64,000 bases of DNA from Balneola sp. (lineage in GTDB: Bacteria > Bacteroidota > Rhodothermia > Balneolales > Balneolaceae), in NCBI GenBank assembly GCA_002696035.1, contig NZQV01000010.1:62001-126000 (forward strand). The letters run 5' to 3'. A program made the position numbers and the translations under genes. How positions within the stretch are numbered: position 1 is the first letter of the stretch; the number at the start of each line of letters is the position of its first letter. Below the pieces are notes generated by a model. That model worked only from the letters and a program-made list of their open reading frames with translations. It was not told the origin of the DNA and ran no database searches. Shown one piece after another: positions 1,114 through 3,387 of this stretch.

Positions 1114-3387
1114 ATGAAATTAGGACGACTTTTACCTTTACTTCTATTTTTCACCATCAGTGTAGCTACGCTTAAAGCTCAGCCCTATTTTAATGGACCT
1201 TGGGAATACGAATCCCATCCTGATCTTCCTTTTCTGCTGGAAGAAATTAATATGGAGTTGACGGTGGATCCTTCGGTCCCGCTTATCAAAGGAACGGCTG
1301 ATTACCTGATAAGTTCTCGCCGGCCTGGGCTCACCCAAGTAGTTTTTAATACCTCAGATCTGGATATTGGAGGCATTTCTTTCGGAGATGATGAAGCTGA
1401 TTATCGCATTTCAGGCGATTCACTTCTTATACATTTACCCGATACCCTGGGGCGGTCTGAAGAACTCACTTTCCGTATCAACTGGGAAAGTTCTTCACCC
1501 TATGGAATCCACTCCGATGTGTATGGCAATAGTTGGACGTCTCTGAATCCTCAGATGCAAAATCACTGGCTGCCAATCCCTGACCATCCAGAACTGGAGA
1601 GTTTGGTTAAAGCCACATTTATTATTCCGGCAGACAAGGAAGTGGTCTTTAACGGAGAAAAAACGGGAGAGGAAGTTTTATCTGCTGAACAGCGAAAAGT
1701 AAGTTGGGCGACGGCGGGTAAAGTTGGCGTTACCGGACTTACGGTAGCAGTTGGCAATTTTGTGCAGGAGTCGGCCCGGACAGGAGTAAATGAGGTATCT
1801 CTCTGGACTTCTGAAAATGGCTTGCTGGATGAAGTACGAAACGGGGTGTTACAGGTTGCCGTGGAAAGTATAAAGCAGTATGAAAGTGAGCTTGAATTTG
1901 AATTTCCATATAAGACCCTTCAGATCATTGTGTTGCCTGATCATAGATGGGAAGAAGTGCAGGCCGGAGCAGGAGTGATCTATTTGTATCAGAACCTGGG
2001 GTCGCTTGGGGCACAGCTTCGCAGAGGAATTACAGCTCAATGGTTTGGGAACTACCATCGCTATATAAGACCGATTGATAACAGGTATGAGTTTTTGAAA
2101 GCACTGGTTGTGGGATCCCAAAGTGAGCAACTTGGTGAAGGAGCAAATCTCGAATCAATGAAGCAGTGGAATCGCTCGGAAAAAGCTGTAGAGTTCATGA
2201 AGAATGAGTTTCAGAAAAATGTCATCAAGACGTCTTTACCGGAATTGGTGCAGCGTTTTGAGGGCGTGACCAATTGGGAAGAATACGCTGATATTTGGTA
2301 CGATGAGACCGGCGCGTTTTGGTATGGCGTTGCTTCTGACATGAAACTTGGAGGAGAAAATGAAAGTGGCTCCTCAGTGTATAAGGTAGAATACCTTTAT
2401 GATGAAATGGGAGGAAATTTAACGCTTGTCTTTGAGGCAGAAACGGAGGCTGTACATTCACTGGTTGGAGTGGATGCGGTAGAATATGGATTCACAGATA
2501 CTACTAGATCGGAGCTTACTTTTACAGGGGAGAGGGATTCAGTGGAGGTTGGGATCTCGTCAGGAATTGAGTATTTGACCCTGCATGTTACTTCAGACCA
2601 AAATATCACTTTGCAGGAAGAGAAGCCCTTCATGTTCCTGATCAGGCAGCTGCGTAATTCTGATCCGGAAGTACAAATTCAGGCTGCAAAGCAGTTAAGC
2701 TCTTACTCAGAAAATCCCGATGTACAGTTAGCCATTCAGGATGTGTTAAGCAACGAAGAGAATGCCGAAGTAAGAGCCGCACTGCTGGAAACACTGGCCG
2801 CTTTAACGAGTGGAGCTACGGGCACGGAAGAAACATTTTTGAGCTCGCTCAATTCAGAGAAGCTGGCAATTCGTCTTTCTTCCATTCGGTCTTTGTCTAA
2901 TTATCCTGAAAATGACCGGGTTAAAAATGCCATTCGAAATACCATGTTCCGAAGTGAGGAGGACACCGTATTTGTGACCGCTTTGGAAACCTATCATGAA
3001 TTGTCTGATGCCGAAGAGATTCGATCTGTGGTCGAGCGTTTTAGTGGAAATGAGCAACACCACCGTGCTCTGGATGCCCTGGCCTTTGCCGTTGCGGAAG
3101 ATAGCACTCGCGAGTCGCTGGCTATTGCGGATCGGTATGCGCTGGGAAGCTATTCATACGAAGTACGATCACAGGCACTTGAGCTTTTGATCAGTCATGA
3201 AGAAAACGAAGCATATTGGGAGCAAACGCTTGAAATGTTACTAGAGGACCGCGATCCAAGAATTCGGTTTCAGGCGTTGAATGCTGTTAGGCATTTGTCT
3301 TCCAAAACAACAGTAGAGATGATTCGTGCCCGGCTCAATGAAGAGATGGACCCAAGGGTGAGAGCCAAGATCCGGCGGATGCTGTAG
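1114..3387 (+). CDS. secreted M1-peptidase-like protein with degenerate active site and C-terminal HEAT repeats
   Basis: 757 residues with a signal peptide (cleavage near KAQ, residue 22). Residues about 35-220 look like the M1 aminopeptidase N-domain ('NHWLPIPDHPEL' corresponds to the usual HWFPCxDxP). The catalytic region is recognisable from 'QWFGN' at 309-313, but the zinc motif HExxH preceding it reads R304-G-I-T-A308. The GxMEN substrate loop is also gone (AGAGVIY at 284-290), and the usual downstream NEG glutamate is not seen. Residues about 510-757 are a series of HEAT/armadillo-type helical repeats ending 'DPRVRAKIRRML'. The protein is therefore probably not a peptidase; a binding or scaffold role is an inference. 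It follows hisN by two bases. Confidence 0.75.
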   Translation: MKLGRLLPLLLFFTISVATLKAQPYFNGPWEYESHPDLPFLLEEINMELTVDPSVPLIKGTADYLISSRRPGLTQVVFNTSDLDIGGISFGDDEADYRISGDSLLIHLPDTLGRSEELTFRINWESSSPYGIHSDVYGNSWTSLNPQMQNHWLPIPDHPELESLVKATFIIPADKEVVFNGEKTGEEVLSAEQRKVSWATAGKVGVTGLTVAVGNFVQESARTGVNEVSLWTSENGLLDEVRNGVLQVAVESIKQYESELEFEFPYKTLQIIVLPDHRWEEVQAGAGVIYLYQNLGSLGAQLRRGITAQWFGNYHRYIRPIDNRYEFLKALVVGSQSEQLGEGANLESMKQWNRSEKAVEFMKNEFQKNVIKTSLPELVQRFEGVTNWEEYADIWYDETGAFWYGVASDMKLGGENESGSSVYKVEYLYDEMGGNLTLVFEAETEAVHSLVGVDAVEYGFTDTTRSELTFTGERDSVEVGISSGIEYLTLHVTSDQNITLQEEKPFMFLIRQLRNSDPEVQIQAAKQLSSYSENPDVQLAIQDVLSNEENAEVRAALLETLAALTSGATGTEETFLSSLNSEKLAIRLSSIRSLSNYPENDRVKNAIRNTMFRSEEDTVFVTALETYHELSDAEEIRSVVERFSGNEQHHRALDALAFAVAEDSTRESLAIADRYALGSYSYEVRSQALELLISHEENEAYWEQTLEMLLEDRDPRIRFQALNAVRHLSSKTTVEMIRARLNEEMDPRVRAKIRRML

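Follow-up and report, generated by a model that had tools for sequence, protein, structure and literature searches.

Known M1 pseudopeptidases and the Balneola locus

To our knowledge, the M1 pseudopeptidases that have been studied, Taf2 and Tma108, are all eukaryotic. TAF2 has lost the zinc site, and TFIID is not expected to exist in bacteria. The portion of the Taf2 literature used here places its aminopeptidase-homology domains D1–D4 within the large complex TFIID (PMC6220335). Tma108, as presented in the sections of a second paper on which we draw, is an M1 relative that is proposed to be non-enzymatic and to bind polypeptides or nascent chains via the old substrate pocket; it acts at the ribosome and has kept all of its active-site residues save one in substrate binding (PMC11266112). 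Tma108 is the sole M1 pseudopeptidase treated in those sections, and the text of that review nowhere mentions TAF2 (PMC11266112). A literature search of open-licence papers returned no description of an M1 pseudopeptidase family in Balneolales.

The locus described here lies in a 64,000-nucleotide stretch of Balneola sp. DNA (hereafter, the window). A single intact ORF on the plus strand, at positions 1114–3387, encodes an M1-fold pseudo-aminopeptidase of 757 aa. The genome of the window has one copy of the gene, as judged by a single-protein search; a first scan of genome contigs with the window protein alone as query gave no match. The four-domain fold of the protein is common to ERAP1, IRAP and F3 (Z 35–37), as well as to PepN, which is found in the Foldseek list. 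Active M1-HEAT peptidases of Bacteroidota match it over the full length of their profile, including the tail, and carry HEAT tails like that of the window protein. By contrast with active M1 aminopeptidases, the window protein is devoid of HExxH, GxMEN and the catalytic Tyr, and the stretch between its QW and G400 is shorter. With TAF2 it has the M1 fold in common (Foldseek rank 3), and no kinship beyond that fold was seen; TAF2 is a nuclear DNA-contacting subunit of eukaryotes, whereas the window protein looks exported. Tma108 differs in that it keeps all active-site residues but one and acts at the ribosome; the window protein has lost the zinc histidines and, again, looks exported.

The N-terminus of the pseudo-peptidase resembles a signal peptide (residues 1–22, positions 1114–1179, plus strand). 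Read by eye, it has a hydrophobic core followed by a stretch that runs into KAQ. Cleavage is probable before Q23, and this residue, the one after the presumed cleavage point, is kept in 32 of the 35 orthologues. Judged from these sequence features, the protein is probably secreted or otherwise exported.

Domain organization and the HEAT tail

An AlphaFold model built from 35 orthologues has a mean pLDDT of 89 and a pTM of 0.79 and contains all four M1 domains, I–IV, all of them encoded on the plus strand. The N-terminal beta domain (domain I) spans residues 40–233 (positions 1231–1812), as delineated by the secondary structure of the model and by Peptidase_M1_N. It is followed by a helical region, residues 239–399 (1828–2310), which corresponds to a degenerate thermolysin-like domain II; its shortening lies between the QW and G400 columns. 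In the model, a beta-sandwich at residues 421–503 (2374–2622) represents domain III, whereas the HEAT superhelix at residues 506–756 (2629–3381), recognized by Pfam HEAT and by the model, represents domain IV.

Structure searches with this model place it among M1 peptidases. The best 50 Foldseek matches listed comprise 49 M1 aminopeptidases and one TFIID chain (7edx_B, rank 3, E 1.2e-29), which we take to be TAF2, and the best 50 listed by VIA are all M1 chains. In the latter comparison, ERAP1 (6q4r_A) is superposed with Z 36.8 and 3.2 Å over 360 residues, covering positions 33–408 of the model, and tricorn F3 (1z1w) and LTA4H have Z-scores of 35.2 and 33.7, respectively. The close structural match covers domains I–II: whole-chain TM-scores of Foldseek are 0.33–0.49 with rmsd of 12.7–18 Å, and the whole-length rmsd of VIA is approximately 9–15 Å. 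Since the whole-length superposition is poor, we take the HEAT tail to sit at a different angle. Profile–profile comparison (hhalign) of the 35 orthologues with eight HExxH-containing M1 proteins covers 713 columns (Prob 100, E 3e-48). Pfam Peptidase_M1_N is matched by all 35 orthologues at E≤1; the score for the window protein alone is 15.9 bits, under the curated cut-off of 25.8, and a Pfam scan of this protein gave no match to Peptidase_M1, the catalytic domain. The M1 fold, which the earlier note had proposed from the sequence, was thus obtained by structure prediction with high confidence.

The same note had pictured a pseudo-enzyme joined to a HEAT array, and here our results lead elsewhere. 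HEAT_2 matches the C-terminus of the window protein (E 3.8e-15) and also scores above cut-off in all five active relatives scanned (L241, L043, L052, L103 and L048), and the hhalign match to HExxH-containing M1 proteins extends through the HEAT tail. Fusion of a peptidase to a foreign HEAT array is ruled out, since active relatives carry the same tail and align over the full length. Given the profile match that includes the tail and the presence of HEAT_2 in active relatives, we consider the window protein to be a complete M1 protein without fusion.

Degeneration of the active site

Active-site columns were examined in a 72-row alignment containing 19 rows with HExxH, 37 order-level (Balneolales) rows and 16 other rows of the class without HExxH. 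In the window protein, the HExxH column is occupied by R304-G-I-T-A308 (positions 2023–2037, plus strand), directly before the retained QWFGN (residues 309–313, positions 2038–2052, plus strand), which the orthologue alignment identifies as conserved. Both elements lie in the helix that formerly bore HExxH, modelled at residues 298–314 (positions 2005–2055, plus strand). The placement of this pentapeptide at the HExxH column, anchored by QWFGN, had been claimed before and is borne out by the alignments, and so is the absence of GxMEN, the columns of which read E280-E-V-Q-A284 (positions 1951–1965, plus strand).

The first zinc His is present in 19/19 HExxH rows versus 0/37 order rows, 28 of which have Arg instead. 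The general base, Glu in all 19 HExxH rows, is likewise absent from all 37 order rows and is G305 in the window protein, whereas the second His (A308 in the window protein) persists in two order rows versus all 19 of the HExxH rows. At the GxMEN Glu column, Glu is found in 19/19 versus 0/37 rows, and none of the order rows has the Met; a chance GNMEN in L002 and L003 (from residues 356 and 357 onward, respectively) lies away from these columns. The catalytic Tyr column, where the alignment is loose, has Tyr in 19/19 HExxH rows versus 2/37 order rows and Trp in the window protein. In addition, the QW-to-G400 stretch of the order rows has a median of 104 residues (shortest, 91) versus 141 in the HExxH rows.

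Less clear is the fate of the third zinc ligand. E326 lies at R304+22, one residue short of the canonical +23 (18 residues after the motif). The corresponding position is Glu in 18 of the 35 orthologues and Asp in one (acidic in 19/35); in the 72-row alignment, the window protein has a Glu in the third-ligand column, yet only 9/37 order rows do. These sequence comparisons leave it uncertain whether the third ligand has been lost; E326 could be a relic of it. Thus, of the earlier statement that every zinc ligand is replaced, the part on the two histidines (R304 and A308) holds, and the part on the third is uncertain, with E326 near the canonical spacing.

Conservation of the R-G-x-x-A site, which the note had singled out for checking, is partial: R304 is kept in 33/35 orthologues and the Gly in 27/35, but the Ala in only 16/35. 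Around it, Q301 and Q309 are each kept in 34/35, W310 and G312 in 35/35 and R316 in 32/35 orthologues. One elongated orthologue of 924 aa, L091 (genome G297), has QWTQ instead of QWFG.

Retention in Balneolales

HExxH is absent from the site in all 35 orthologues and in all 37 order rows of the 72-row alignment, two sets that overlap. It is also absent from the best frames of 67 loci in named genomes, although two of these frames (L238 and L240) stop short of the site; titles of the named genomes include Gracilimonas, Balneola, Fodinibius, Rhodohalobacter, other Balneolales and one Rhodothermaceae, and this set overlaps with the others. By hand count, a strong match (E≤1e-70) to the pseudo-peptidase is found in 113 of 128 Balneolales genomes, that is, in 77/92 genomes of the family of the window and in 36/36 genomes from the remaining Balneolales families, with some matches present in pieces only (e.g., in G336). 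No strong match was found in the remaining 15 of the 128 genomes, several of which are incomplete assemblies. Two genera of family f1 with genomes of 1.4–2.7 Mb, g131 (9/9 genomes) and g132 (2/2), are without a strong match.

Frames are intact across the order at 21–55% identity to the window protein, and dN/dS is 0.12–0.17 in all eight close pairs examined, which involve five proteins from one genus and point to purifying selection there. In one genome (G264), the orthologue L118 is divided over two overlapping frames, owing to either a frame break or an assembly error. A recent pseudogene is ruled out by the order-wide conservation together with the dN/dS values. The loss of the zinc site is not recent decay, since no order-level homologue examined has HExxH; the view that the protein is a pseudo-enzyme, already expressed in the earlier note, is well supported. 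Neither of the findings that the note had named as refuting it, HExxH at this column in sister genomes or a predicted structure lacking the M1 fold, was obtained among the homologues examined and in the model. The M1 pseudopeptidase family is real and old in bacteria.

Related proteins in Rhodothermia and repeated loss of the zinc site

Other families of Rhodothermia also have M1-HEAT-like proteins without HExxH (L042, L044, L095–L099 and others). These have lost the catalytic residues too, and L042 has a HEAT tail. They differ from the proteins of the order in that their QW-to-G400 stretch is of full length (median 141 versus 104 residues), Arg is present at the first-His column in only 2/16 and a HisN-like neighbour in 0/4. 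These proteins may stem from separate losses.

M1 proteins with HExxH are found in the same order, some of them in the same genomes. We built two phylogenies. Tree 1 (72 rows, quick method) left out L118, L041, L040, L032, L068, L070, L072 and L077 as well as 14 of the 30 same-family rows; L045 had no match in the class search, and repeat loci of the same genomes (L055–L083, except four) were skipped. In this tree, 51 of the 53 rows without HExxH group together with SH-aLRT support of 84. Tree 2 (65 rows) was obtained by dropping 19 further rows and adding 12, including L041, which has HELAH, and L040. Here, the clade of the order branches first within the ingroup; the remaining class members are grouped with L041 with support of 98. 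Grouping of the order, the other class members and L041 together is not rejected (p-AU 0.065), and the order may or may not share its loss with the other class members. L041 and L040, the latter a C-terminal part, are contig-end fragments from the same genome (G219), perhaps halves of one gene, and both group with the HExxH-less Rhodothermia clade. If they are one gene, there would have been parallel losses inside that clade.

In both trees, L107 (G219) and L109 (G354), which are without HExxH, nest among HExxH rows, indicating that the zinc site was lost more than once; there are at least two further losses of HExxH in the class.

The hisN-type neighbour and active M1 proteins of the same genomes

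Immediately upstream of the pseudo-peptidase, at positions 344–1111 on the plus strand, lies a gene for a hisN-type histidinol-phosphatase (TIGR02067, 276.2 bits, cut-off 275.15), which ends 2 nt before the ORF and, as judged from gene order, is a conserved neighbour in the order. In 14 of the 16 neighbourhoods examined within the order, the pseudo-peptidase gene is immediately preceded, on its own strand, by a HisN-like gene (counting frames of at least 100 aa); the two exceptions are L159, with a frame in between, and L163, without a HisN-like gene. None of the four neighbourhoods outside the order has such a neighbour. Among the 67 named loci, three were left out for too short a flank; in 52 of the other 64, a HisN-like gene lies on the same strand not more than 400 nt upstream, and 14 of these 52 overlap the pseudo-peptidase gene by 1–4 nt. 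In the remaining 12 loci, the gene overlaps an over-long predicted start (four), is located farther upstream on the same strand (seven) or is not found (L193). Other genes near the locus, which we read from their translations in the window as an ABC permease/ATPase pair, GlgA and GlgC, recur in 13, 12 and 11 of the 16 order neighbourhoods, respectively. The pseudo-peptidase looks exported and its conserved hisN-type neighbour cytoplasmic.

The genome of the window contains four other places matching the catalytic model of Peptidase_M1, all with HExxH; one of them, L034, scores under the family cut-off. The active M1-HEAT paralogue L052 is matched over nearly its full length in one of 92 genomes of the family of the window, G292, which is 71% complete and 4% contaminated and in which the HEAT tail was confirmed. 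At least 12 genomes of this family have other long M1 frames of 803–877 aa, and HETAH is present in the six such loci that were read (L246–L250 and L252), L249 being cut short. Three of these, L247, L250 and L252 from the genus of the window (G089, G257 and G258), are M1 proteins of about 855 aa with HETAH. Scans of L247 and L250 gave no HEAT match, and one of the two has a weak ERAP1_C-like match in the tail. Both kinds of protein occur in G123, which holds L037 without and L052 with HExxH, and likewise in G361, G362 and G363.

Possible function

We find it fairly likely that the window protein is an extracytoplasmic M1 pseudopeptidase acting as a non-catalytic binding scaffold, in bacteria a counterpart of TAF2. 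Taf2 and Tma108 serve as precedents for M1 relatives with non-catalytic roles. Since the whole order keeps the zinc-less state, it probably binds proteins or peptides rather than cutting them. After export, the protein would fold into the M1 cradle, composed of the beta domains and the HEAT superhelix, and this cradle would offer a non-catalytic surface to which peptides or partner proteins in the periplasm could bind. By their conservation, two regions are candidates for the contact. One is the former active-site helix, with Arg304 in place of the first zinc His and with Q301, W310, G312 and R316 kept; the other would be formed by the first HEAT repeats (residues 506–580). Mean pairwise identity is 0.51 for the QWFG helix (298–316), the highest of seven segments, and 0.47 for the first HEAT repeats, both segments having been picked after the conserved columns were seen; it is 0.35 for the whole HEAT region, 0.34 for the N-terminal beta domain, 0.32 for the whole catalytic remnant and 0.26 for the sandwich. 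As a guess, a carboxylate or another anionic group could pair well with the arginines. The former active-site helix may be conserved solely as part of the fold core, and it speaks against the scaffold that residue 304 is Arg in only 28 of the 37 rows spread over the order. Where the earlier note saw a repurposed peptide-binding or scaffold protein, the pseudo-enzyme part is well supported and the binding or scaffold role is plausible.

A protein that is still a hydrolase, or that binds another metal, via a rebuilt site (for example one made of E326 and neighbouring groups) would also fit the strongly conserved former active-site helix and the acidic residue found at position 326 in 19/35 orthologues. 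This is very unlikely, however, as the first His, the general base and the GxMEN Glu are lost in 37/37 order rows and the second His and the Tyr in 35/37, many proteins of the order have no Glu corresponding to E326, and domain II is shortened (median 104 versus 141 residues). A functionless, decaying remnant is the most improbable of the explanations: the lost catalytic residues and the 15 of 128 genomes without a strong match, 11 of them from two genera with genomes of 1.4–2.7 Mb, are compatible with it, but intact frames order-wide at 21–55% identity, low dN/dS (0.12–0.17) and conserved gene order all argue against it.

Two further explanations assign the protein a partner. It might regulate an active M1 peptidase or act as its decoy, working through mixed complexes or substrate competition. 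Both kinds are indeed found together elsewhere in the order and class, in families other than that of the window (e.g., G123, G361, G362 and G363), the own genome of the window has other M1-type proteins with HExxH, and the long M1 frames in at least 12 genomes of its family, with HETAH in six loci read, would supply candidates. As a general explanation, partnership with the active M1-HEAT paralogue is weakened by the distribution, an L052-type paralogue being present in 1/92 family genomes versus 77/92 for the pseudopeptidase, and of the other long M1 proteins, L247 and L250 were scanned and gave no HEAT match. Other active M1 proteins remain as candidates, but we regard a regulatory or decoy role beside any active M1 peptidase as unlikely. 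Alternatively, the pseudo-peptidase and hisN could share one pathway, in histidine or phosphate-ester metabolism. The HisN-like gene is next upstream in 14/16 order neighbourhoods and within 400 nt in 52/64 loci, with 14 overlaps of 1–4 nt, but one product looks exported and the other cytoplasmic, the neighbour occurs beside the gene in none of the four outside-order neighbourhoods examined, and genes of one operon do not always serve a common pathway. We hold a common pathway to be quite unlikely; nor does the cytoplasmic-type hisN neighbour give any hint of an envelope role for the pseudo-peptidase.

Returning to the binding scaffold, a broader proposal can be put forward tentatively: that this is an old, order-wide exported family in which the M1 cradle has been turned into a dedicated binder with Arg in the place of zinc, an envelope counterpart of TAF2 and Tma108, and that active M1-HEAT enzymes of the Rhodothermia gave rise to this state repeatedly. 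With enzymatically active relatives in its own order and several losses of the site across the class, such a conserved and probably exported bacterial family would form a natural series for the evolution from peptidase to binder. Recognition of the family would also correct automatic labels such as 'M1 aminopeptidase' or 'HEAT repeat protein'.
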